DNA of 20,797 nucleotides from a virus, in the IMG/VR virus record IMGVR_UViG_3300022707_002587, positions 1 to 20,797 of that record; one strand, 5' to 3'. This document shows positions 1-9,294 of this stretch, piece by piece. The first letter of the stretch is position 1. Each line of letters begins with the position of its first letter. The notes beneath the pieces were generated by a model. That model saw only the letters and a list, made by a program, of their open reading frames with translations, did no database searches and was not told the DNA's origin. Position numbers and translations under genes: made by a program.

Positions 1-9
1 AGTGATAGG

Positions 10-303
10 TTACTCATTGTCTTGTTCCTTTGGATTTTTGTCTCGCCATTCAACGCCAGCTTTAAAGCTATTTACTGTGCCTTCTCCATAGTTGTGAGTA
101 CTTAGTTGATAAAATTCAACCGCTGCCTCTTCTACTGTTTGAGCTTTAATCCGGTAATCATAACTAACCCAATCCCAAGCAGGATCCTTCGAGTTATTCC
201 ATTCATCACAGCTATTGCGCTTTATTTCAATCTTTTTATTGCCAAAATCAAACGCTTGCATTATTTGAATTTTCCCTATTAAAGTTTCTGTATCGATTTT
301 CAT
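10..303 (-). CDS. small phage protein, unknown function (97 aa)
   Basis: I do not recognise a named family. The protein is acidic to neutral, with a central Trp-rich stretch (PAWDWVSYDYRIK, about residues 41-53) of a kind seen in many small tailed-phage accessory proteins, followed by a helical segment (EEAAVEFYQLS) and a C-terminal EWRDK tail. No membrane segment or cysteine motif is visible. It is the last gene of a leftward run and starts 3 bp after the stop of the 74-aa gene upstream. Co-transcription with the ParB-like gene is inferred. Start choice is the only Met with a full-length reading frame. Confidence 0.7.
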   Translation of the reverse strand: MKIDTETLIGKIQIMQAFDFGNKKIEIKRNSCDEWNNSKDPAWDWVSYDYRIKAQTVEEAAVEFYQLSTHNYGEGTVNSFKAGVEWRDKNPKEQDNE

Positions 304-306
304 TAC

Positions 307-531
307 TTATTCCTCGTTGAATCGGTCTAATACAAGTTGATCAAGGGCTTCTTCATCCCATCCGGCTATTACGTAGCTGTCTATATACGAACCGGATAAC
401 TCGGGCGTGTTGGTTTCAACCTCTCTATCGATAGGCTCACCGGCTACGATAGGCATTGTTGTAACAACTGAATCAGGTGTACTGATTTCGCTTACGGGAA
501 CTCGGATTGTTATTTCGATGTATTCGTTCAT
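307..531 (-). CDS. small acidic phage protein, unknown function (74 aa)
   Basis: Unknown function. The N-terminus looks like a beta-strand (EYIEITIRVPV), the middle is Thr/Pro/Glu-rich, and the C-terminus (WDEEALDQLVLDRFNEE) is a probable acidic helix. No cysteine or membrane motif. It lies between two other short leftward genes with short gaps, so it is probably part of the same transcript. Confidence 0.65.
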   Translation of the reverse strand: MNEYIEITIRVPVSEISTPDSVVTTMPIVAGEPIDREVETNTPELSGSYIDSYVIAGWDEEALDQLVLDRFNEE

Positions 532-549
532 TGTCTGTGCCTTTGTTAA

Positions 550-765
550 TTAAACCGATTGCCCTTCAGGATATTTTGTAGTTAGTGGTCTATAAGTGTC
601 CTTGGCTTTTTTGCCACATTCTTCGCATTTCATATTAGGAATTACGTTATTATGAAAGTTAGCGTCATCATAACCATATGATGCCTTTACATCACCACAG
701 TGCTCGCATTCATAGATAGCTTGGAAATCTCGTCGATGTTGAGATAGAATTTCTTTAATTTTCAT
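550..765 (-). CDS. zinc-ribbon-like small protein (71 aa)
   Basis: Contains two CxxC pairs (CEHC at about residues 20-23 and CEEC at about 47-50) spaced as in a zinc ribbon, so metal binding is likely. The N-terminus is a basic helix (MKIKEILSQHRRDF). Between the pairs is GYDDANFHNNVIP, a segment with His that could contribute to folding. A purine-rich ribosome binding site (AAAGAGGAAAGGAAA) precedes the ATG. Function unknown; small zinc-ribbon proteins in phage accessory regions often bind nucleic acid or a host protein, but nothing here tells which. Confidence 0.7.
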   Translation of the reverse strand: MKIKEILSQHRRDFQAIYECEHCGDVKASYGYDDANFHNNVIPNMKCEECGKKAKDTYRPLTTKYPEGQSV

Positions 766-800
766 TTTCCTTTCCTCTTTATTAACGTTTCACCCAAAAT

Positions 801-815
801 CCCAAATTAATGGGT
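801..815. repeat. CCCAAATTAATRGGT motif, copy 1
   Basis: A 15-bp near-identical motif (one difference, G versus A) found again at 4887-4901. Both copies are in gene-free stretches upstream of leftward genes, and both can form a short CCCA/TGGG or CCTAT/ATAGG type hairpin. Possible shared leader or regulatory element; function not known. Confidence 0.4.
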
Positions 816-837
816 ATGGGCCTACAGACTGATAGGG

Positions 838-1668
838 TTATCTTGCAAGTGCCCCCCCTGAAGACGGGCGGTTTGGAAGGGTAATTTTTGCACCCTCCCT
901 TACTTGTATTCTTTTTAATGGCTGGTCATTAAGGAATGAATTCCACGCTTTAAAGAATGCGCCTAATAGCTGCGTCTTTGTTTCCGCGTTTGTTGGTCTG
1001 TTTCTAAACATGGTTAAATACTCGAAAAATCTCTTGCAAGGGTCGTCAAGCCCATAAAATAGGACGTTACCTATCTTATCTAAAAATTGATTTGTTAATT
1101 CAGGGTCAATCTCATCAAGCATAAACGCACCAAACATGATTGCAGCGCCGCTGCCTTTTATTTTTTTCGATTTATATATTATTTCAGAAACTCTATTTGC
1201 ACCAATTCTTAAGGTTAAATCGTTGGCGCAATCTAACACTTCTTTATTTGTTGCGTCACAAATCCTACCAAGCCTCCATTCTCTTTTATCATCTTGGCGG
1301 CTGTATGAGATAATCAACCTTGCTATTGATGCAAGATGATTTGTGTTTTTAAACCCTTCGATCCCTAAAATATCAGCAGAACTCCTTGCTTTTCCGGTAT
1401 CGATGGTTTCAAATGCGTGCGTACTGGTAACACCTTTAATTAATTCGGTCACAAATGATGCATTAGATTCTATGCATGCCATAAGTCTGTGCTGACCGTC
1501 CAAAAGCTTCCCTTTATCATTCAACACAATTGATTGGCCGTTATATATCCAATCTCCATTAACCATTTGTCTAGCAAGCCTTGACACATGACGCGGGTTT
1601 ATTTTTCGGTTATTGGTGTTTGTTGATAATATTGATTTAGCCTTTCTTGGTGTGATAGTGGTTTTCAT
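838..1668 (-). CDS. ParB/sulfiredoxin-domain protein (276 aa)
   Basis: The N-terminal 70 residues fit the ParB/Srx fold: ITPRKAKSIL, an NNRKINPRHVSRLARQM helix region, GDWIYNGQSIV, and the signature DGQHRL at residues 57-62, the conserved GxHR-type loop of ParB-like NTPase/nuclease domains. The rest is alpha-helical with no recognised domain. Phage proteins of this class are usually annotated ParB-like; some bind DNA or nick it, but the activity here is unknown. It is transcribed leftward, divergent from the HTH gene at 1760, from a promoter whose -10 overlaps that of the HTH gene. A CGGAGAAA ribosome binding site precedes the ATG. It is probably the first gene of the 1668-10 transcript. Confidence 0.85.
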   Translation of the reverse strand: MKTTITPRKAKSILSTNTNNRKINPRHVSRLARQMVNGDWIYNGQSIVLNDKGKLLDGQHRLMACIESNASFVTELIKGVTSTHAFETIDTGKARSSADILGIEGFKNTNHLASIARLIISYSRQDDKREWRLGRICDATNKEVLDCANDLTLRIGANRVSEIIYKSKKIKGSGAAIMFGAFMLDEIDPELTNQFLDKIGNVLFYGLDDPCKRFFEYLTMFRNRPTNAETKTQLLGAFFKAWNSFLNDQPLKRIQVREGAKITLPNRPSSGGALAR

Positions 1669-1690
1669 TTATTTCTCCGGTTTATTTAAC

Positions 1691-1719
1691 TTAACTTTTC
1701 AACTTAAATCTAGTATAAT
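1691..1719 (+). promoter_or_regulatory. predicted sigma-70 promoter for the HTH regulator
   Basis: -35 TTAACT (1691-1696), 17-bp spacer, perfect -10 TATAAT (1714-1719). Expected start near 1726, giving a leader of about 34 nt before the ATG at 1760. Prediction from sequence only. Confidence 0.6.
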
Positions 1720-1740
1720 ACATACTATTCACTATTACAA
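1712..1740 (-). promoter_or_regulatory. predicted sigma-70 promoter for the ParB-like gene
   Basis: Read on the minus strand: -35 TTGTAA (1735-1740), 17-bp spacer, -10 TATACT (1712-1717). The -10 box shares four base pairs with the rightward -10, so RNA polymerase should occupy only one of the two promoters at a time. Confidence 0.55.
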
Positions 1741-1743
1741 TAG
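1712..1743. promoter_or_regulatory. operator-like inverted repeats between divergent promoters
   Basis: Two inverted repeats lie here: AGTAT-5 bp-ATACT (1712-1726) and CTATT-2 bp-AATAG (1732-1743), with a repeated ACTATT between them. They cover the leftward -10 and -35 and the rightward start region, as expected for sites of the neighbouring HTH protein. That the protein binds here is inference. Confidence 0.5.
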
Positions 1744-1759
1744 CATATTAAGGTATTTT

Positions 1760-1963
1760 ATGAAAATATTAACCGGTCAAATTTTAAGGCTTGCTTTAGT
1801 TAAGTCAGGTATTAATCAAATCTCTGCTGCTGAGAAACTTGGTTTGTCGGTTCATACTGTTAGAAATCAATGTAAATCTAATAATCCTAAACTATCAACG
1901 GTCACAAAATATGCCGAACTTTGTAATATGAAGGCTTCTGAGTTAATCGCCCTTTCTGAATAA
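1760..1963 (+). CDS. Cro/CI-like HTH regulator (67 aa)
   Basis: The only convincing rightward gene in the window. It has a lambda-repressor-like (Xre-type) helix-turn-helix: GQILRLALVKSG, then ISAAEKLGLSVHTVRNQC (residues 21-38) as the HTH, then STVTKYAELCNMKASELIAL. The small, single-domain size is Cro-like; there is no C-terminal dimerisation/protease domain. I chose the ATG at 1760, preceded by AAGG, rather than a longer upstream reading because that extension crosses the promoter and the divergent gene start. It probably represses one or both divergent promoters. After its TAA stop the same frame stays open for 15 codons. Confidence 0.85.
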   Translation: MKILTGQILRLALVKSGINQISAAEKLGLSVHTVRNQCKSNNPKLSTVTKYAELCNMKASELIALSE

Positions 1964-2011
1964 AGCATTATCGCTGAGTTAGTGGCAAAGGCTCATAAGA
2001 AAGAGGTTTAA

Positions 2012-2248
2012 TCACTTGGTCAACCTTTTATAGTCTTTAGGCTTAACCCATCGGCCCTCGTATTCGCAGTAAACGACATCGTTAATCAGGATATATTCAG
2101 TACCCGGGCATGATTCGGCGTCTAACCTCGCTTTTAAGTCTATTTCGGCTTGTCCTGACCATTCAGCGAACACCGGTACTAGATGTTGTCCTAAGAAAAG
2201 GAGGAAGCCTACAGCGCATATTACAGAGATTGATGGTCCTATCTTCAT
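2012..2248 (-). CDS. small N-terminally anchored membrane or secreted protein (78 aa)
   Basis: Residues 5-28 are hydrophobic (SISVICAVGFLLFLGQHLVPVFA) and could be a signal anchor or a signal peptide. The remainder (acidic helix AEIDLKARLDAE, then CPGTEYILINDVVYCEYEGRWVKP) would be periplasmic and has two Cys that could form a disulfide. Function unknown. The gene starts 3 bp after the zinc-ribbon gene stop and is the last leftward gene before the convergent HTH gene. Confidence 0.65.
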   Translation of the reverse strand: MKIGPSISVICAVGFLLFLGQHLVPVFAEWSGQAEIDLKARLDAESCPGTEYILINDVVYCEYEGRWVKPKDYKRLTK

Positions 2249-2251
2249 TGG

Positions 2252-2425
2252 TTATCCCTCTTGGTTATCCTCGGAGAATGGTATGGAATAATCTATATCT
2301 ATCCACCATTCTTGCTTACATGCAAGGCAGACCCTATAACCTTCTCCTGAAGTGTCTTTGTATTCATCCATAGTATGTTCACAATCACACTCAGGACATC
2401 GAAAAGTTACCTGTTTTTCACTCAT
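2252..2425 (-). CDS. zinc-ribbon small protein (57 aa)
   Basis: Short gene filling what would otherwise be a gap. It has CPECDC (residues 10-15) and CLAC (33-36), a CxxC-x19-CxxC zinc ribbon, followed by an acidic Trp-containing tail (EWWIDIDYS). It fits the space between its neighbours. Function unknown; probably nucleic-acid or protein binding. Confidence 0.7.
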   Translation of the reverse strand: MSEKQVTFRCPECDCEHTMDEYKDTSGEGYRVCLACKQEWWIDIDYSIPFSEDNQEG

Positions 2426-2444
2426 CTTCTCTATCTCCTATCTG

Positions 2445-3038
2445 TTAAATACTATTACTTGAATATTTTGCTAATTTTATTAATTCGTCTCTAAATTTTA
2501 TAGGTGTTGCGTTTGATTCTTTTCTGTTTAATGTTGGTTTATTTCTTTTTTTCCCTCTTTGGTCTTGTCTGCCTATTTGGTGGCTCCCTTTTAGCCTTTC
2601 CCAATTTAGATCAAATGGTTTATCCTCTCCCTTATAATAGAGCCATGTAGCCTTATTTGCCTTGTGACCATAAGCCGACTGCCAAACCTCACAAACCCAT
2701 CCTAAACCTGATGGACTCCAACCGATTTTATTAGGATTTCTTAATTTATGTTTAGCCCATGCGTAAGATTGTGCCGGGTGCTCTAAAATACCACCACATC
2801 GATCGATAGATTCTAACGCAGACATAAAACACCCTTGATCATTTCCTGGTTTGTTGTGCTCACCACCCCACCTAATATAGTTTATCTTTGCCATTTTCCC
2901 CCATAATTGACACGGAGGATGCGCTATTACAGGGTTATCGCCATTATACAATCTTGCATCACGACCTATTGTCCAGCAATCAATACCATCTAAATCAAAA
3001 TAACACCCATTCTTTTCAGCGAACAAAACACTTATCAT
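2445..3038 (-). CDS. C5-cytosine methyltransferase-like phage protein (197 aa)
   Basis: The N-terminus (ISVLFAEKNG) resembles motif I of cytosine C5 methyltransferases (DLFAGxGG) but lacks its glycine pattern. AHPPCQLWG (residues 39-47) matches motif IV, with the catalytic PCQ cysteine. GGILEHPAQS (82-91) sits where the ENV-type motif VI would be. The protein is much shorter than normal C5 enzymes (over 300 aa) and has no obvious target-recognition domain; the C-terminus is basic. It may act on free nucleotides, modify DNA in an unusual way, or be a degenerate fold. I chose the second ATG (3038), because the AGGAG site is 8 nt from it and only 2 nt from the ATG at 3044. Confidence 0.65.
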   Translation of the reverse strand: MISVLFAEKNGCYFDLDGIDCWTIGRDARLYNGDNPVIAHPPCQLWGKMAKINYIRWGGEHNKPGNDQGCFMSALESIDRCGGILEHPAQSYAWAKHKLRNPNKIGWSPSGLGWVCEVWQSAYGHKANKATWLYYKGEDKPFDLNWERLKGSHQIGRQDQRGKKRNKPTLNRKESNATPIKFRDELIKLAKYSSNSI

Positions 3039-3049
3039 TTCCATCGCTC

Positions 3050-3400
3050 CTAAATTAAATTACGTTTATTATAATAAGCTTCCACTTCGGCTTGAGTCAT
3101 TACTTTAGATTGTTGTTTGGCTTCCTGTGCTCTTCTGGTGCCATCCTGGGACTTATTGGTTTGTTTGGCTAATATGGTTTTAAGAGCGTTTCCTCTTTCT
3201 TTTTCTTTTTTGGCTCGGGGAGTTTCTTCTCTTACCCATTCATTGTATAAGCTGCTAGCGTTTTCTATTTCAGTGTCTCCAAAGCGTTCGATGAATAAAA
3301 GTAGCTTTCTTTTTCTTTGCTCGTCTGACCAGCCACCAGCGATTAAACCATTAATTGTTCTATTGTGGGCTCGCCAGTTAGGAGTGATGAGTTGTTTCAT
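3050..3400 (-). CDS. basic helical phage protein, unknown function (116 aa)
   Basis: Not recognised. The N-terminal half (NWRAHNRTINGLIAGGWSD, ERFGDTEIENASSLYNEWV) looks like a compact helical domain of the sort found in phage replication-accessory proteins, and the C-terminal half is very basic and likely coiled (PRAKKEKERGNALKTILAK). The ATG overlaps the upstream stop as ATGA, so translation is probably coupled. A DNA-binding or helicase-loader-like role is possible but not supported by a motif. Confidence 0.6.
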   Translation of the reverse strand: MKQLITPNWRAHNRTINGLIAGGWSDEQRKRKLLLFIERFGDTEIENASSLYNEWVREETPRAKKEKERGNALKTILAKQTNKSQDGTRRAQEAKQQSKVMTQAEVEAYYNKRNLI

Positions 3401-3642
3401 AAGTAAGAATCATTATAAAATTTTGGCGCGCCTTCTGGTAATTCAGAGTTATCATCAATAATTTCACAAGCTCCATCGATGTAATACTGATCATACTTGG
3501 GAACTCGTCTTGCTGATGTATCGATATAATCCCAACTAAATAAACAGTTGTAGCTTTTTGATCTCGCTTCGTTTGCTGTGTCGGCGTATACCAAAAGGCA
3601 GCCTTCACCAGGATCATCACTAAATACCATAAAAGCTTTCAT
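3397..3642 (-). CDS. small phage protein, unknown function (81 aa)
   Basis: Starts MKAFMVFSDDPGEG, followed by LVYADTANEARSKSYNCL, a beta-beta-alpha pattern (a strand, then an ARxK helix) common in small phage proteins that share a reading-in of 'A..A..A' helices. The ATG at 3642 is chosen because GGAGATAAGAG lies just upstream; a longer in-frame start would overlap the next gene by 30 bp without a ribosome binding site. Function unknown. Confidence 0.65.
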   Translation of the reverse strand: MKAFMVFSDDPGEGCLLVYADTANEARSKSYNCLFSWDYIDTSARRVPKYDQYYIDGACEIIDDNSELPEGAPKFYNDSYL

Positions 3643-3670
3643 TCTCTTATCTCCATAGTTAAAATAAATC

Positions 3671-3892
3671 TTACCAAGATGGATTATAGGATAAGCCAAC
3701 AAGCGTTTTTGTTCGCTTTGAATGGCCCATTAAGTCACCTCTAACTACTTTGCTTAAGTGCGTCACATCATCAAAACATTGATTTAGAGCACGAATAGCC
3801 ACACTACAAGGATGATCATAAACATCAGCACCATTAACTAAATCTTCTTTTGCTATTTCTTCCAAAAAATATACTAATTCTTCTTTGTTCAT
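3671..3892 (-). CDS. small acidic helical protein, unknown function (73 aa)
   Basis: Begins MNKEELVYFLEEIAKED, an amphipathic helix, followed by HPCSVAIRALNQCFDDVTHLSKVV. No family recognised. The start at 3892 is preceded by GAGAGGAAATAAAG; an in-frame start further upstream would run inside the neighbouring gene. The last residues (SYNPSW) form a short tail. Confidence 0.6.
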   Translation of the reverse strand: MNKEELVYFLEEIAKEDLVNGADVYDHPCSVAIRALNQCFDDVTHLSKVVRGDLMGHSKRTKTLVGLSYNPSW

Positions 3893-3894
3893 CT

Positions 3895-4089
3895 TTATTT
3901 CCTCTCTGTTTGGTTTATAGGTTGTCTCTCGACTTCTTTCAAACAATGACAACAATCAGCTTCTGGCTCGTCTTTATGAATTAACAACCCATCCCATTCG
4001 CAGCAGAATCGATAACTTTGATCTAGTTCTTCTTTAGTCAACTTTAAATCAAAGTTATTATTTAGCTCTTTTCTTCTTTTTGGTGTCAT
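3895..4089 (-). CDS. Cys-rich small protein (64 aa)
   Basis: Basic N-terminus (TPKRRKELNNN), then LTKEELDQSYRFCCEWDGLLIHK and DCCHCLKEVE. The FCCEWDGLLI and CCxC elements suggest a small metal-binding fold. The stop is 2 bp before the next gene's ATG and its own ATG overlaps the Lar-like gene stop as ATGA, so the three are translationally linked. Function unknown. Confidence 0.65.
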   Translation of the reverse strand: MTPKRRKELNNNFDLKLTKEELDQSYRFCCEWDGLLIHKDEPEADCCHCLKEVERQPINQTERK

Positions 4090-4286
4090 TTTTGTTTAGC
4101 CTTAGGTTTGCGAGTATTCCAAGCTTCAACCGCTTCATACCTTTCGTGATAACCGCCGCCCCATTCCTCCATTTCTACGCCACAATCGCCACAGCGCACA
4201 CTCCACAAGTCAAGCCCGTTATGATGGGCTGACACTCCTTTGTTGGTGCCGCAAAACGGGCATTCTTTTAGTTTTGTGTCGCTCAC
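4086..4286 (-). CDS. Lar-like restriction alleviation protein (66 aa)
   Basis: The protein has LKECPFCG (Cys 9 and 12), SVRCGDCG (Cys 32 and 35) and EAVEAWNTR near the C-terminus, which together are the signature of the Lar family (two-CxxC zinc fold followed by a helix with AW-N-R). In the Rac prophage, Lar reduces host type I restriction by modulating the modification enzyme; other family members are untested. The start is GTG at 4286 with AAGGAG upstream. An anti-restriction role fits its place beside a methyltransferase-like gene. Confidence 0.75.
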   Translation of the reverse strand: MSDTKLKECPFCGTNKGVSAHHNGLDLWSVRCGDCGVEMEEWGGGYHERYEAVEAWNTRKPKAKQK

Positions 4287-4325
4287 TCTGTTCTCCTTAT
4301 TTAAAATATTACGGTCACTCGACCT

Positions 4326-4829
4326 TTAACCCATCTTTTGGGCGGTTTTAATTAAATATATATCGTTATTACTGAGAGCTCGCCAGTCGGTTTGATCAAG
4401 ATTACTCTTTCCACAATTGCAGGCAGCGCATAAAATCTGCATGTTATCGAACTCGAGCTCAAGCTTTGGAAATTTAGACCTTGGCTTGATATGGTCAACG
4501 TGGACAATAATCCCGTGCTCATGGGGTGTTCTACCGCAACACATACATTTAGCCTTATAAACTCTTAACACTCTGTACCGGAGCTCTAGCCATTCCCTGG
4601 ATCGATAAAAGTCGTTATGTGAGCTCTGTTTATGCTTCTTTTTCCGCTTTTTCTTTTTCAGACTCTTTTGTTGTTTCTTAGTTAATCGTTTAATATAATC
4701 TAGATTCTTAGCTAATGGCTTATGTTCAATATAGACCTTACTATCACTGGATACTTCTACACCTTTACTAAACTTAATGACTTTAACTTTACTGGGTAAA
4801 CTTTCTTTAGTATTAAAGTTATTCTTCAT
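4326..4829 (-). CDS. HNH endonuclease (167 aa)
   Basis: The N-terminal 70 residues are Lys-rich (KKQQKSLKKKKRKKKHK around 51-67), probably for DNA contact. The HNH nuclease core follows: FYRSREWLELRYRVL (74-88), zinc-binding CMCC (C95/C98), HVDHIKPRSK (H110, D112, H113 catalytic strand), FDNM (N129) and ILCAACN (C134/C137, N138). All expected catalytic and zinc residues are present. It has no RuvC or PLMP domain, so it is not IscB/IsrB-like. It could be a free-standing homing-type nuclease or a packaging/recombination nuclease. It lies immediately downstream of the large structured RNA and may be co-transcribed with it. Ribosome binding site AGAGGG. Confidence 0.9.
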   Translation of the reverse strand: MKNNFNTKESLPSKVKVIKFSKGVEVSSDSKVYIEHKPLAKNLDYIKRLTKKQQKSLKKKKRKKKHKQSSHNDFYRSREWLELRYRVLRVYKAKCMCCGRTPHEHGIIVHVDHIKPRSKFPKLELEFDNMQILCAACNCGKSNLDQTDWRALSNNDIYLIKTAQKMG

Positions 4830-4871
4830 TTAACCCTCTATGCTTAACGTTTGAGCTGGTAGATTCTTGAC

Positions 4872-4915
4872 ATAAGGAACCCTATACCCAAATTAATAGG
4901 TTTAGAGCTCCTTAT
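4872..4915 (-). repeat. terminal hairpin of the structured RNA
   Basis: ATAAGGA/TCCTTAT (7 bp) encloses CCTAT/ATAGG (5 bp). It lies about 45 nt before the HNH start. No T-run follows on the minus strand, so it is more likely a 3' boundary or processing element than an intrinsic terminator. It contains the second copy of the CCCAAATTAATRGGT motif. Confidence 0.5.
4887..4901. repeat. CCCAAATTAATRGGT motif, copy 2
   Basis: Matches 801-815 at 14 of 15 positions. It sits in the loop region of the hairpin at the left end of the structured RNA. Shared role with the other copy is unproven. Confidence 0.4.
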
Positions 4916-5172
4916 ATCTCATGCTTATACGAATCACTGTATAGAACAAGACAATCAACCATTAACATAATTAAGTTGACTCGATACCGTTACTTCAATG
5001 TGAAGCCTGCAAACTGTTGTATCTTTCGGACTCAGCTAACGCCATGCTTTCTTCATACGTTTTTAAAATTAAGCCGGTGAGGGTCCCAAAACTACCTATA
5101 AAGGCGTGTTGACTAAGGGAGACATATCTCTACTTAATTCGAGCTGATGGTCGTAATGACTATTAGATGATA

Positions 5173-5255
5173 TGGAGTCGGGCGTGGAATTGAACCACAT
5201 TCGCCATTCGTAAACCTATACGTCTATAGGGCGGCAGCATCGTGCTAGACCAGAC
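5173..5255 (-). other. tRNA-like module inside the structured RNA (non-canonical or degenerate)
   Basis: On the minus strand the 3' half is tRNA-like: a T-arm with GTGG/CCAC stem and TTCAATT loop (5184-5198), an acceptor strand GCCCGAC, a T discriminator and an encoded CCA (5173-5175). The 5' strand GTCTGGT (5249-5255) pairs with one mismatch and one wobble. The D-arm loop would be only about 5 nt and the anticodon-like hairpin (CCTAT/ATAGG) has a 6-nt rather than 7-nt loop, so this is not a normal translating tRNA. The whole module is closed by an extra 10-bp helix. It could be a decayed tRNA or a tRNA mimic. Confidence 0.45.
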
Positions 5256-5771
5256 ATTATATTTATATCATCTATCTGAGGAAGTGTTTATATGAAGGGG
5301 AGCTAAACGTCTGGCTAGCCTCACCAAATAGTCGCCCCGATAGTTTTCGCAGGACTTCCGTTAGTCGATTAACTCCACCACATATAAACACTTTAAACCT
5401 GCTTAGGAGAGCGATTTAGACAAGTTAGGCTGAGTTTACGCATAGCCTTGGCATTACTTGCAAATCCTTACACAATGAATAATTACTCTGTGTATTGGGG
5501 TGCAACTCAACTACCACTAAATCACTCTATTAAACAGGCTTATTGCTTTGAAGGGTGCCGGTAACTTGATAATCCAATACACTCGCGAGAATGTAAAATA
5601 GTAGAATGATTACCAAATAACCAGCATAAAAAAAGCCCTTAAAGCAAAACCCCAGTTCGTATAGCGTTTAGTCCACCAGTAACACAATTAAAACTAAGGC
5701 TCTGAAATTTTGCTTTAAAGACTCTTTTGTGTATAACTGGTATTTATTGACGCTGTACGATCAGCCCTACA

Positions 5772-5800
5772 AGTATAAATCTATTCCTCCTTATTATCAA
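5772..5800 (-). promoter_or_regulatory. strong predicted sigma-70 promoter for the structured RNA
   Basis: Minus strand: -35 TTGATA (5795-5800), 17-bp spacer, -10 TATACT (5772-5777); each box matches consensus at 5 of 6 positions. The expected start is near 5765, five nucleotides before the first predicted paired segment (5751-5760). The promoter overlaps the end of the 63-aa gene, so the RNA can be made independently of the upstream operon. Confidence 0.7.
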
Positions 5801-5972
5801 TAACCTTTTGAAACTCATTATCAAATGGAACAAATGTTATCGCAGAGGCGAAGTGACCTCCGACCTGTTCGGCCATACTTTCATAAAGCCATCCACCTGG
5901 AACCCTTGTAACATAAAGATTTCCACCAGCGTCAAAAGTATCATGTAACTCTAATTTGTATATTTGATTCAT
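5781..5972 (-). CDS. small phage protein, unknown function (63 aa)
   Basis: Beta-rich sequence (IYKLELHDTF, LYVTRVPGGWLYES, AITFVPFDNEF) that resembles small conserved proteins found in many phage accessory regions, without known function. No cysteines, no membrane segment. Its 3' end carries the promoter of the structured RNA. It is the last gene of the 8942-5781 operon. Confidence 0.7.
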   Translation of the reverse strand: MNQIYKLELHDTFDAGGNLYVTRVPGGWLYESMAEQVGGHFASAITFVPFDNEFQKVIDNKEE

Positions 5973-5999
5973 CTATAATCCTCCTACCTGTTATTAACT

Positions 6000-6308
6000 T
6001 TATTTAATAAACTGCGTTAGTAAACCAGCAAACATATTACTCATTGTGTCGTGTTGTCGATGATCATAAACAAAGATATAGTCACTCCTACAATCAGGTC
6101 TTTGCAATCTCACATTCATCTCAACAGCGCATATTTCCATGAGTTCATGACATATCAACCCAAATATTTCATTGGTAGTGTTGTTTTCTGTTCCGATGGT
6201 TATTTCATGATCGCTCCAGCAAAATCCTGCATAACTGTTTTTTGCATCCCAAACAACCTTAAAATCAAAACTATTAACTTTTAGACTCTCTATTCTCTTT
6301 ATCTTCAT
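6000..6308 (-). CDS. HELxE zincin-like small protein (102 aa)
   Basis: Beta-rich N-terminus, then IFGLICHELMEICAVEM (residues 48-64), which resembles the HExxH helix of zinc metallopeptidases with the second His replaced by Glu (H54, E55, E58). FVYDHRQHDTM (79-89) supplies H83 and H86, which could complete a metal site. This is shorter than a typical protease; whether it is active is unknown. I chose the ATG at 6308, which overlaps the upstream stop as ATGA and has GGAGGCGA upstream, over one 27 bp further out. Confidence 0.65.
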   Translation of the reverse strand: MKIKRIESLKVNSFDFKVVWDAKNSYAGFCWSDHEITIGTENNTTNEIFGLICHELMEICAVEMNVRLQRPDCRSDYIFVYDHRQHDTMSNMFAGLLTQFIK

Positions 6309-6625
6309 TTCGCCTCCAATACTTTTAATACGCATTCAGCTAGTGCGCGTTGTGGGTTTTTGTTGAATGTAGAGTGTTTTGTCTGACATCCTAATTCTAT
6401 TGCTACATACGCCTGCCATGTATCGGTTTCTTTATATTGAAAGAGGCTTATTTGACGTTCAACCACTAAAGGCATTAAATCGTTCCAGTCGTTCAAATAA
6501 TCACAAAATAAATACCCAACTGATTTTTGGATTATATAAATACTTTCATCATCACAATTTTTCTTAACCGTTGAATCTGGATATAATGCCTCAGCAATCG
6601 CCTTATTTAATTCAAAATCAGTCAT
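6305..6625 (-). CDS. phage ABA-sandwich/DUF2591-like protein (106 aa)
   Basis: ELNKAIAEALYP at the N-terminus, YLNDWNDLMPLVVERQISLF in the middle and NPQRALAECVLKVLEAK at the end form the pattern of the phage ABA-sandwich domain family common in gammaproteobacterial phages. The role is not established. It overlaps both neighbours by a few bases, so it is probably translated in coupling with the HELxE gene downstream. Confidence 0.75.
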   Translation of the reverse strand: MTDFELNKAIAEALYPDSTVKKNCDDESIYIIQKSVGYLFCDYLNDWNDLMPLVVERQISLFQYKETDTWQAYVAIELGCQTKHSTFNKNPQRALAECVLKVLEAK

Positions 6626-6806
6626 AACTTACCTCCATCCTAAAATATTCGTTGATAGCCTGTAAGCTCCTGTAAGCCTCTGCCTCTTCTTTTTGGAATT
6701 GGTCACGCATTACTTCAAGAGCGAGGATTAAAACACTGTGAGGGACTGCCTCATGCCTTATGGAGTCGATAAAGGCGTTGACTCTCTGTGAAGGGCGCTG
6801 ATTCAT
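6618..6806 (-). CDS. small helical protein, unknown function (62 aa)
   Basis: Almost wholly alpha-helical (RVNAFIDSIRHEAVPHSVLILALEVMRDQ, then KEEAEAYRSLQAINEYF). No motif recognised. It overlaps the next gene by 8 bp and the previous one by 4 bp. Confidence 0.6.
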   Translation of the reverse strand: MNQRPSQRVNAFIDSIRHEAVPHSVLILALEVMRDQFQKEEAEAYRSLQAINEYFRMEVSYD

Positions 6807-7126
6807 TTCTCTACCCGTTTAACATCTTGCAATCTAAATGTCTCGACTTTTTCTTCAACAACTCCACAACATATAACTTTAACAACATCACACATCTCAC
6901 CGTGAAGTTTAACTGGTCCACATACATCAACTGGAACCTCTCGGTAATAGTTAGCCCTGCCACCACCACCGATTACTTTATAAGTATATTGCTCATTTTC
7001 TACGCCGTAACGCCTTTGCTCAATTATACAATAATCGCCAAAATCTAAAGGTGTATCTGTATTTCCGATAATGGTTCTGTTGTTAATTGACTGGATATTA
7101 ACGTCTGGTGTAAATGTATTATTCAT
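6803..7126 (-). CDS. beta-rich phage protein, unknown function (107 aa)
   Basis: Mostly beta-strand prediction: IQSINNRTIIGN, DYCIIEQRRYGV, QYTYKVIGGGGRANYYREVPV, and KVICCGVVEEKVETFRLQDVKRV. Contains several Cys (two adjacent in ICCG) but no zinc spacing. No family recognised. ATGA overlap with the upstream 74-aa gene. Confidence 0.6.
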   Translation of the reverse strand: MNNTFTPDVNIQSINNRTIIGNTDTPLDFGDYCIIEQRRYGVENEQYTYKVIGGGGRANYYREVPVDVCGPVKLHGEMCDVVKVICCGVVEEKVETFRLQDVKRVEK

Positions 7127-7347
7127 TGGTACATCCTCTTTCCGAATTTCTTTTTAAGACGAGACTTTTGTAAGTCGGTGAGATAGTGACTCATTCCCAT
7201 CGGTATAACCTCTATCTTATTTTTTGAGTCTTTAGATAGCCATGTTTCAACCGCTGTCTGTAACTCTAAGCTATCGATTTGCTTGTGGTGTTGAAGCTGA
7301 GACTTTGTGATGTGATAGTAGCTGTTTCTTGATTCGTGAATGTTCAT
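7123..7347 (-). CDS. small basic protein, unknown function (74 aa)
   Basis: His- and Gln-rich N-terminus (YYHITKSQLQHHKQ), then SLELQTAVETWLSKD and a very basic C-terminus (LQKSRLKKKFGKR). Could bind nucleic acid; no known domain. ATGA overlap with the DUF551-like gene. Confidence 0.6.
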   Translation of the reverse strand: MNIHESRNSYYHITKSQLQHHKQIDSLELQTAVETWLSKDSKNKIEVIPMGMSHYLTDLQKSRLKKKFGKRMYQ

Positions 7348-7580
7348 GGTTTAGTCTCCGGTGGTTCTGGTAGCATCCAGTGCGTTACGGTGAACTCGCT
7401 AATGTCGCAACCGTTACCATGAAATTCCGGAGTGTCTGAACATCGGTATTCATAACAAGCATCAGGAACTCTTGACCCTTTACCGTCCAGATTGAATTTA
7501 ACCCATATATCACAAACAATACCTGATTTTGACTTGGGTATCACCGGGAGGTTGTTGTCAACACTTATCCACTTACTCAT
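7344..7580 (-). CDS. DUF551-like protein (78 aa)
   Basis: Starts MSKWISVDNNLP and ends VTHWMLPEPPE, the two ends of the DUF551 family (WISV-D-LP at the N-terminus and THWMPLPEPP at the C-terminus), common in gammaproteobacterial phages and of unknown function. The ATG at 7580 overlaps the stop of the small membrane gene as ATGA. A longer in-frame reading upstream would run through that gene. Confidence 0.85.
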   Translation of the reverse strand: MSKWISVDNNLPVIPKSKSGIVCDIWVKFNLDGKGSRVPDACYEYRCSDTPEFHGNGCDISEFTVTHWMLPEPPETKP

Positions 7581-7708
7581 TGGTAAGACCCCACTGTTTT
7601 CGATACAAAAGAAAGAAATAGGTATATAAGTGAACCATAAACAATTCCCACTATAATCCAAGATTTTATAAGCTTCTTTATATTTGATTTATCCAGTGCT
7701 TGTTTCAT
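7577..7708 (-). CDS. single-span membrane protein (43 aa)
   Basis: Short gene with basic N-terminus (KQALDKSNIKKLIKS), one hydrophobic segment (WIIVGIVYGSLIYLFLSFV, about residues 18-36) and a short polar tail. Both ends overlap neighbours as ATGA, which supports real translation. Topology by the positive-inside rule is N-in. Function unknown. Confidence 0.6.
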   Translation of the reverse strand: MKQALDKSNIKKLIKSWIIVGIVYGSLIYLFLSFVSKTVGSYQ

Positions 7709-7803
7709 ATCACCACCTCAAAACAAATGATTAACGTTAATAGAATGACTAAACCCCATAAAACAATCCAAGTGAGTAGTCTTGCTGTTTCATCGTCCAT
7801 CAT
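7705..7803 (-). CDS. very short membrane protein (32 aa)
   Basis: MMDDETARLL followed by one membrane segment (WIVLWGLVILLTLIICFEVVI). ATGA overlaps with the genes before and after; GAGGTGGTGAT near its end serves as the ribosome binding site of the next gene. Role unknown; the size is compatible with a regulatory or lysis-linked micro-protein, which is speculation. Confidence 0.5.
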   Translation of the reverse strand: MMDDETARLLTWIVLWGLVILLTLIICFEVVI

Positions 7804-8012
7804 TTATTCTCCAACTCTTTCTTAAGTTCTTTAATGATTGCTTTAATGCAAGATTTACAAGGTTGAACACTTCCGCCAGATGCTAAAGCTACATGTTGTG
7901 CATCTTGAAATAAAAACCCGTGACTTCTCCAAACCTTTCTTCCACACCAAGTAACCGGCTGTATCAATTTCTTGCCGTCGTTGTATTCATATTTAATTAC
8001 ATGTGTTGCCAC
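7800..8012 (-). CDS. Cys/His small protein, possible zinc ribbon (70 aa)
   Basis: TWCG (residue 23), SHGF, AQHVALASG and QPCKSCIKAI (CxxC about residues 52-55) give C-x-H-x-H-x-CxxC, possibly one zinc site. The C-terminus is a Lys/Glu helix (KELKKELENK). No family recognised. Confidence 0.6.
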   Translation of the reverse strand: MATHVIKYEYNDGKKLIQPVTWCGRKVWRSHGFLFQDAQHVALASGGSVQPCKSCIKAIIKELKKELENK

Positions 8013-8022
8013 AATTTATTCC

Positions 8023-8352
8023 TTAACAAAAATCTAGTGGGTTTGGTTTTTTCTTTGGCACTCTTATACCTTCGCAGTCATCGGAAAATCTCAGTGTTTG
8101 GTTTATAAATGTAATATTATTATCAAGCGGGTTAATTGAATCAATTGGCCTATCAATTTTAATATCATTACTACTGAGCCATGCAGTGACGGCATTAAGC
8201 TGTGTTAAAATATAGGGTGGCAGTTCACGACCACTTCCCACCTTAAACCAAATCTTATCTCTTACACCCTTATACACAGTCTTTCTTCCAAAAAGCCCTT
8301 TGTACACAACCGTGAAAATCCCGTTTTTTTGACCTGTGCTATATAGTTCCAT
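8023..8352 (-). CDS. phage protein, unknown function (109 aa)
   Basis: N-terminal beta part (NGIFTVVYKGLFGRKTVYKGV), central ELPPYILTQLNAVTAWLSS helix and a Pro-rich C-terminus (VPKKKPNPLDFC). No family recognised. It overlaps the upstream 79-aa gene by 14 bp, which argues for translational coupling. Confidence 0.6.
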   Translation of the reverse strand: MELYSTGQKNGIFTVVYKGLFGRKTVYKGVRDKIWFKVGSGRELPPYILTQLNAVTAWLSSNDIKIDRPIDSINPLDNNITFINQTLRFSDDCEGIRVPKKKPNPLDFC

Positions 8353-8578
8353 TATTTACTCCATCCAACCATTCAGCTAAAGGGATTACTTCTCCGTCTT
8401 CATGTGTAAATGTACAACTGTCGTTAAACTCAATTTCTGTCGCTTCTTTTAATATTTCAATAATACACTGTGCAACTTTAAGAGGTGTTATTCCCTGCCC
8501 TTCTAGTTCAAAAGCAAACCCATTAAGAATAATATCTCCATCTTTTTCTTCGATTGTTCCAAATTTAGTTATTTTCAT
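8339..8578 (-). CDS. small acidic protein, unknown function (79 aa)
   Basis: Alternating strands (MKITKFGTIEEKDGDIILNGFAFEL), a helix (PLKVAQCIIEILKEATEIEF) and a tail with EVIPLAEWLDG. No known domain. Good ribosome binding site (AGGAG, 7 nt before the ATG), which also overlaps the stop region of the upstream membrane protein. Confidence 0.65.
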   Translation of the reverse strand: MKITKFGTIEEKDGDIILNGFAFELEGQGITPLKVAQCIIEILKEATEIEFNDSCTFTHEDGEVIPLAEWLDGVNNGTI

Positions 8579-8581
8579 TAT

Positions 8582-8767
8582 TTACTCCTGAGAGTTTAAT
8601 TTATCTAATTTTTCTTCAATACGATGTAAAACCGCTAAGATTAAGAACATAAAGCACATTATTAATGATTCTTTGCTTGGCTGCTCGAGAGTTGATTGAT
8701 AAAACCATGCTCCCGCCATAATTACTAAAGCAACTCTAAATCCCGATATGTTTATTTCTTTACTCAT
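8582..8767 (-). CDS. two-span small membrane protein (61 aa), holin-like in shape
   Basis: Two hydrophobic segments (about residues 9-24 and 34-49) and a charged C-terminal coiled segment (HRIEEKLDKLNSQE). The shape fits a class II holin, but so would many small membrane proteins, and no endolysin is next to it. I chose the ATG at 8767 (MSKEIN) rather than a longer reading that would overlap the ribbon-helix-helix gene. Confidence 0.55.
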   Translation of the reverse strand: MSKEINISGFRVALVIMAGAWFYQSTLEQPSKESLIMCFMFLILAVLHRIEEKLDKLNSQE

Positions 8768-8771
8768 ATCA

Positions 8772-8942
8772 TTAACCCTCTGAGTCGTAGTCGTGTTTAT
8801 CCATAGCGGCAAGTATTGCAAGTCGACACCATTCCGATTTGTTATAAGTGATACTTTCGAGTCTTTCTATTTGATCCGGATCGAACATTACTCCAATCAT
8901 TTGTTTGTTTGGTGGCTTATTCTTTTTTGCGAATTTAGACAT
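8772..8942 (-). CDS. ribbon-helix-helix-like DNA-binding protein (56 aa)
   Basis: Basic N-terminus (MSKFAKKNK), then NKQMIGVMFDPDQIERLESI and NKSEWCRLAILAAMDKH: a short beta-strand followed by two helices, the Arc/MetJ/CopG layout. Length is in the range of phage Arc-type repressors. As first gene of the leftward operon behind its own promoter, it probably controls that operon or the nearby late region. Ribosome binding site AAGGATAAAGGAAA. Confidence 0.7.
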   Translation of the reverse strand: MSKFAKKNKPPNKQMIGVMFDPDQIERLESITYNKSEWCRLAILAAMDKHDYDSEG

Positions 8943-8975
8943 GTGTTTCCTTTATCCTTTATTTAGGTTGAATTA

Positions 8976-9004
8976 AAGATACATTAATCTGGCCATGAAG
9001 TCAA
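8976..9004 (-). promoter_or_regulatory. predicted sigma-70 promoter of the accessory operon
   Basis: Minus strand: -35 TTGACT (8999-9004, 5 of 6), 17-bp spacer, -10 TATCTT (8976-8981, 4 of 6). It lies directly between the late terminator and the ribbon-helix-helix gene, so it restarts transcription after the late operon ends. Confidence 0.6.
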
Positions 9005-9019
9005 CTTTATTATAGACAT

Positions 9020-9043
9020 AAAAAAGCACCGGTTAAGGTGCTT
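9020..9043 (-). terminator. intrinsic terminator of the late operon
   Basis: Minus strand: AAGCACC, 6-nt loop, GGTGCTT, with the T-run reaching 9020. A clear rho-independent terminator 83 bp after the 55-aa gene. The 9044-9126 stretch between them has no gene. Confidence 0.85.
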
Positions 9044-9126
9044 AGTACTGCAGGGGAATGTCAAAGTGAGTTATTCACAATGAGTAAGCGTTATCTATAA
9101 TACAGTAAATTATTATAAAGTGATAG

Positions 9127-9294
9127 CTACTCGATTTCCATTGCATGAACGCACCGACCTAGTGGGCTGATAACTTCTACCTTATCACCCGATACAGCCG
9201 TTACAGAGCCTTCGTCGGTGGTGACAGTTGCTCCAATAAACTCAAATGCTACACCTTGTAGCACTTCTATGTCGTTGATTAATACTTTATACAT
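9127..9294 (-). CDS. small beta-rich protein following the tailspike (55 aa)
   Basis: Short gene directly after the tailspike, with 3 bp between stop and start and an AGGTGAT ribosome binding site. The sequence (YKVLINDIEVLQGVAFEF, GATVTTDEGSVTAVSGDKVEVISPLG) is entirely beta-strand-like, and would fit a small SH3-like or virion-decoration fold. Function unknown. It is the last gene of the late operon, just before the terminator. Confidence 0.7.
   Translation of the reverse strand: MYKVLINDIEVLQGVAFEFIGATVTTDEGSVTAVSGDKVEVISPLGRCVHAMEIE

Follow-up and report, generated by a model that had tools for sequence, protein, structure and literature searches.

A small HTH gene and a ParB-type gene diverging from a predicted bidirectional promoter in a phage genome fragment

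In a 20,797-base virus record (hereafter the window), the large genes of which are of the short-tailed phage type, a gene for a small HTH regulator of 67 aa (1760–1963, plus strand) is divergent from a gene for a 276-aa ParB-type protein (838–1668, minus strand), which is the first gene of a leftward block. With moderate confidence, we interpret this node as a local autorepressor acting at a bidirectional promoter, in which the HTH protein, placed in a CI-type position, represses the leftward, probably early, operon together with its own gene. The arrangement is of a well-known kind and the layout is a common one, and no report of an HTH/ParB-type pair under one promoter was found in the literature searched. 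The original prediction had compared the node with lysis–lysogeny switches and asked whether it was bistable. Its divergent regulator and operon are a fair reading, but the step from overlapping promoters to bistability is unsupported: bistability needs feedback, such as a cooperative repressor or mutual repression, and none is in evidence here.

The two genes are separated by a spacer of 91 bp with a GC content of 22%. It contains a predicted rightward sigma70-type promoter (TTAACT-17-TATAAT, 1691–1719, plus strand, 10 of 12 matches), with its −10 box at 1714–1719, and a predicted leftward one (TTGTAA-17-TATACT, 1712–1740, minus strand, 9 of 12 matches), with its −10 box at 1717–1712. Both hexamer pairs were re-found as originally described, and so was the 4-bp overlap of the −10 boxes at 1714–1717. 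Transcription starts, when placed 7–8 bases past each −10 box, are predicted at about 1705 (leftward) and 1726–1727 (rightward). The resulting distance of 21–22 bp between predicted starts falls within the 7–25 bp by which bidirectional promoters with divergent starts are defined (PMC10268837), and a TATA core is common to both −10 boxes. Shine-Dalgarno-like tracts are found on both sides (AAGG before the HTH ORF and GGAG upstream of the ParB-like ATG). No other gene start in the window is clearly divergent, and the hexamers are well placed for both genes.

The overlap is less striking than at first sight: TATA reads the same on both strands, so that every TATAAT contains part of a −10 box in the other direction. 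In positions 1–5000, promoter-like sites numbered 14, against 14.2 ± 3.9 in shuffled sequences, and the whole window held three overlapping pairs, against 1.7 ± 1.5 expected (30 shuffles). These counts, together with the chance-level frequency of the inverted repeats described below, are consistent with an explanation in which the hexamers overlap by accident in AT-rich DNA, the genes use other signals (for example, a phage-encoded polymerase or read-through) and the HTH protein acts elsewhere. We consider this unlikely: the pair lies within the window's single divergent spacer, and when that 91-bp sequence was dinucleotide-shuffled 4000 times, such a pair arose in 1.8% of the shuffles (0.8% with an equal or higher summed score). 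Overall, the promoter and repeat matches lie near chance level for such AT-rich DNA, and we give them low weight.

Two inverted repeats, previously described as operator-like, are present in the spacer: TAGTAT-N5-ATACTA (1711–1727), over the −10 boxes, and CTATT-N2-AATAG (1732–1743), over the leftward −35 box. Both are operator candidates, but their frequency is no higher than in shuffled spacers, as repeats of this quality were equalled in 36% (arms of at least 6) and 42% (arms of at least 5) of 2000 shuffles. The possibility that they are two copies of one operator was rejected, as half-site orientation and spacing both differ, and neither has a perfect second copy elsewhere in the window. 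A triple occurrence of CTATT/AATAG (1725, 1732 and 1739) gave a p value of 0.023 for a pattern picked post hoc. No exact match to the 20-base spacer core was found. A second repeat score, which detects real operators in some cases and whose failure is not proof of absence, gave p 0.46 for the window spacer and p 0.03 for the CI/Cro spacer of phiAH14a, which is also 91 bp long and carries two related 14-bp palindromic sites, AAAGGTATACCTTT and AAAGGCATCCCTTT. For the other two spacers with a known or proposed switch, the same score gave p 1.0 (VvAW1) and p 0.84 (PFR1). Repeated operators with a common half-site were not found in the window spacer; the phiAH14a control was positive, and the VvAW1 and PFR1 spacers were also negative.

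The 67-aa protein matches phrog_3865 (E 4.6e-6), a family of unknown function, the regulator family phrog_2967 (E 2.2e-4) and several PHROG transcriptional regulators. Its match to PF01381 (E 2.5e-4, 21.5 bits) lies under the cut-off of 23, and we therefore describe the protein as HTH_3-like, or Cro-like, instead of filing it under PF01381. A single-sequence model has five helices (pLDDT 64) and gave no significant fold match (best E 0.24; one chain with Z 6.5 and the rest below 4). The reading frame, its size and the HTH-like similarity agree with the Cro-size HTH protein originally proposed, whereas its gene, which diverges from the leading gene of the leftward block, is placed as CI would be. 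The gene is apparently monocistronic. A clear terminator at its end was sought and rejected (z −0.3), as were plasmid relatives of the protein (a single match, E 0.06). The sole locus returned by a genome scan (L174) was dropped as a relative; its product is longer (239 aa), with a C-terminal HTH, and by its look we take it to be a LuxR-type regulator.

Relatives of the ParB-type gene occur in 93 phage records, and gene order was examined in five of these. phiAH14a has, in order, a repressor gene, a divergent Cro-like gene, two small genes, the ParB-type gene, a second ParB-type gene and a replication gene, and in PFR1 the ParB-type gene is third after a divergent HTH regulator. In the other three phages, it stands alone and in opposite orientation among head genes, in a rightward block beside an antirepressor gene, or in a large phage. 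For IMG/VR, the set consisted of the best 80 of 575 ParB-type loci, in which HTH_3 exceeded its cut-off in 21 of 80 records (11 of 40 and 10 of 40). An HTH_3 match over the cut-off was nearest upstream on the same strand, at 0.4–1.3 kb, in L078, L055, L069 and L036, and 0.6–0.7 kb downstream of the ParB-type gene in L029, L031 and L054; in none of these 80 loci did such a match lie within 1.3 kb upstream on the other strand. L078 has one weak opposite-strand HTH_3 match at 0.75 kb, behind the same-strand HTH gene. In L069 and L078, the ParB-type gene is downstream of a same-strand HTH gene, as in phiAH14a. These positions indicate that in some phages the ParB-type gene belongs to the block that follows a Cro-like gene. 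The window's HTH gene lies opposite the first leftward gene, and the ParB-type gene of phiAH14a is in the early operon after Cro; therefore, the HTH gene of the window takes the place of CI and by position would match the repressor side.

No recognizable homolog of the window's HTH protein was found in the best 80 of the 575 ParB-type loci, and no second case of a direct 91-bp HTH/ParB-type pairing was found in the phage and IMG/VR sets examined. Crude gene calling covered 73 loci (68 of the best 80 of 575, plus the five named phages; 11 loci were lost, and in L044 no ParB ORF was found). The nearest upstream ORF of the ParB-type gene was on the same strand in 55, divergent in 16 and at the contig edge in two. 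We judge most of the 16 divergent ORFs, four of which were scanned, to be spurious. On one IMG/VR contig (L040:3528–4792), a 113-aa ORF, HTH-like on visual inspection, diverges from the ParB-type relative at close range; it found no support from Pfam or PHROGs, and this locus is a possible second case of the divergent layout. Scans of IMG/VR with the ParB-type protein and with the HTH protein alone returned no close relative that includes the spacer. Plasmid searches gave distant matches only (17 records for the ParB-type protein and 4 for the head-closure protein).

We propose that one AT-rich, pseudo-symmetric promoter would direct expression of the HTH protein rightward and of the ParB-CTPase-fold protein and small downstream genes leftward, with the palindromic TATA core serving both −10 boxes. 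The 67-aa protein would most likely bind the spacer as a dimer and repress both the leftward operon and its own gene, so that the operon would be kept down until wanted. A polymerase bound at the shared core would bar another for that moment, and momentary exclusion of this sort would not make a switch. The earlier statement that the overlap forces mutually exclusive transcription is contradicted by work on E. coli. There, a bound RNA polymerase shuts out the other for that moment, and yet none of the five bidirectional promoters tested had enough basal transcription for the two directions to compete; competition appeared only under strong activation of one direction, and the interference reduced variation from cell to cell (PMC12825309). 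AcrR represses both RNAs of its own bidirectional promoter (PMC12825309), a case that may by analogy be a fair model for the node described here. If the hexamers are used as predicted, the window would provide a further phage regulator that shares a two-way promoter with the operon it faces. The general lesson is a negative one: overlapping −10 boxes arise easily from palindromic TATA in AT-rich spacers, and alone they make no switch.

The window encodes a head-closure Hc3 protein (phrog_578, E 7.6e-74), an adaptor (PF24175, E 3.4e-22) and a DNA transfer protein (phrog_770, E 1.4e-42), and by our judgement of the ORF list, plausible genes are nearly all leftward, with the HTH gene as the one clear rightward gene. 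The head-closure protein has matches in 43 phage records at less than 60% identity, including Rhodoferax phage P26218 and many Vibrio phages. The 20 of these records that were listed are 33–40 kb long; therefore, the window is probably a genome fragment from which about half of the genome is missing. In the best 80 of 599 loci of a head-closure scan, one relative was 48% identical on 5.5 kb and the 79 others were 29–34% identical. A search of 40 of these 80 loci, made without a positive control, found a ParB-type gene in none, and HTH_3 gave a weak match in 3 of the 40, none over the cut-off.

Two explanations that differ in the role of the repressor were weighed. In a true lysis–lysogeny switch, the leftward operon would be lytic and the HTH protein a minimal repressor of the prophage, with feedback giving two stable states. 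The layout does resemble CI-type regions, VvAW1 is thought to be temperate from its turbid plaques and divergent HTH gene (PMC3558961), and Xanthomonas phage PBR31, which matches the same head-closure protein, is described as temperate, but the relative P26218 is called lytic in the same source (PMC10975493). The search for a CI-type repressor or integrase elsewhere, as originally suggested, gave no tyrosine integrase (PF00589) in the 20.8-kb record, itself a fragment of a genome much of which is missing, and no recognized lysogeny gene among the 20 window proteins scanned. Paired identical operators were not found in the spacer, and 67 aa is too small for a separate dimerization or cleavage domain. 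We find such a switch improbable.

The same absence of an integrase and of lysogeny genes among the scanned proteins, together with the Cro size of the HTH protein and the relative called lytic (PMC10975493), would suit a timing repressor of a lytic phage, a Cro-like protein that damps early leftward transcription as it accumulates, with neither lysogeny nor bistability. However, the genome is seen in part only, and Cro normally lies within the operon that it damps, whereas the HTH gene here lies opposite; we accordingly hold this role to be doubtful.

The ParB-type protein matches phrog_5931 (E 9.3e-58, residues 4–260), whose function is unknown. Its AlphaFold2 model (pLDDT 87, 33 sequences) has an N-domain (residues 1–96) with a DGQHR motif and a helical C-terminal part. 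The structural matches are led by ParB, Noc, KorB and sulfiredoxin chains, with Z values below 8 for the best of them, ParB 7bnk_B (VIA-align, Z 6.9, rmsd 3.2, 89 residues), followed by KorB 8qa9_B (Z 6.3), sulfiredoxin 6ky4 (Z 6.0) and the DndB complex 9jfl_A (Z 4.5, 211 residues). The label 'ParB/Srx' given in the original prediction is thus correct at the level of predicted fold, the modeled N-domain being of the ParB-CTPase/sulfiredoxin type, and this predicted fold does not imply a partition function. No HTH_3 match was found in the protein. The fold that the modeled N-domain would share with the repressors KorB and DndB, the latter described as an ATP-dependent repressor (PMC12704722), raises a two-regulator scheme in which the neighbor, as a nucleotide-dependent repressor, would repress the HTH gene from the same spacer and the two would cross-repress at one 91-bp bidirectional promoter, but the NCBIfam DndB/DGQHR model TIGR03187 was not reached (13.2 against 58.85 bits), no binding site lends support, and we regard the scheme as highly improbable. 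If it were true, the decision would be read from nucleotide as well as from repressor levels. To our knowledge, most members of the ParB-CTPase fold are not repressors, which also counts against cross-repression. phrog_5931 is frequent in phages, and a binding test would be worthwhile.

Apart from the node, about 950 bases without a plausible gene (4830–5780, minus strand) are strongly structured as RNA (z −9.4, 20 shuffles), and this region may merit more attention than the divergent promoters. Its structured modules lie at 4870–4925 (z −7.0), 5278–5396 (−4.4), 5396–5545 (−6.5), 5545–5640 (−4.8) and 5625–5735 (−7.0), and the segment 5165–5285 reached a z of only −1.1. Among 61 tiles of 150 nt over positions 1–9150, only four fell below −3.5 on a strand, all within 4801–5700. 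The region gave no Rfam match at gathering level, no tRNA and no phage blastn match, and is possibly an undescribed large phage RNA. Within it, at about 5175–5205 on the minus strand, a tRNA T-arm-like segment, GTGGTTCAATTCCAC, is followed by acceptor-like GCCCGAC and TCCA; ARAGORN finds no tRNA there, and a 26-base string from the segment had no exact match in IMG/VR. Near-identical 15-mers, CCCAAATTAATGGGT and CCCAAATTAATAGGT, occur at 801–815 and 4887–4901, the latter inside a strong hairpin. An HNH endonuclease gene (4326–4829) adjoins a gene resembling those for Lar-like restriction alleviation proteins (4086–4286, minus strand; phrog_599, E 2.6e-13). A small gene at 550–765 matches phrog_14808 (E 4.5e-37), and positions 605–780 show about 71–79% DNA identity with Streptococcus and Yersinia phages in 13 records, a wide spread for phage DNA. 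A weak SAM-SAH riboswitch match at 9229–9267 (minus strand; 22.1 bits against a gathering score of 40, E 0.47) is probably due to chance.

Among known systems, the lambda-type CI/Cro region of phiAH14a resembles the window in having a small HTH gene at a divergence, beside a block in which a ParB-type gene is found. In phiAH14a, two regulator genes diverge, with repeated 14-bp palindromes between them, whereas the window has one HTH gene with a ParB-CTPase-type partner in place of two divergent repressor/Cro-type regulators, and no such repeats. Overlapping divergent promoters are present in the immI region of P22. VvAW1 (L090) is, like the source of the window, a podovirus with a related head-closure protein, in which a single small HTH gene diverges from a leftward block, and its authors proposed a CI/Cro-like region for the divergence of gene 32 and gene 31 (PMC3558961). 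The VvAW1 HTH protein (71 aa) is 32% identical to that of the window over 62 residues; its gene heads a seven-gene rightward run, whereas that of the window is apparently monocistronic. VvAW1 has no annotated ParB-type neighbor, and the same scan finds no overlapping hexamers in its spacer. Plasmid pLS20 likewise combines a repressor gene, rcoLS20, with a conjugation operon at overlapping divergent promoters, predicted ones in the case of the window. It is a real switch, built on operator repeats, looping and a three-way regulator; its operators, as reported, are multiple, repeated, looped and mapped by experiment (PMC4207663), whereas no repeated operator stands out in the window. The bidirectional promoters of E. 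coli and Salmonella have a typical start spacing of 18 bp, whereas that of the window is known from sequence only; like them, the predicted promoter pair of the window has a shared, near-symmetric −10 element, with predicted starts 21–22 bp apart (PMC12825309, PMC10268837).
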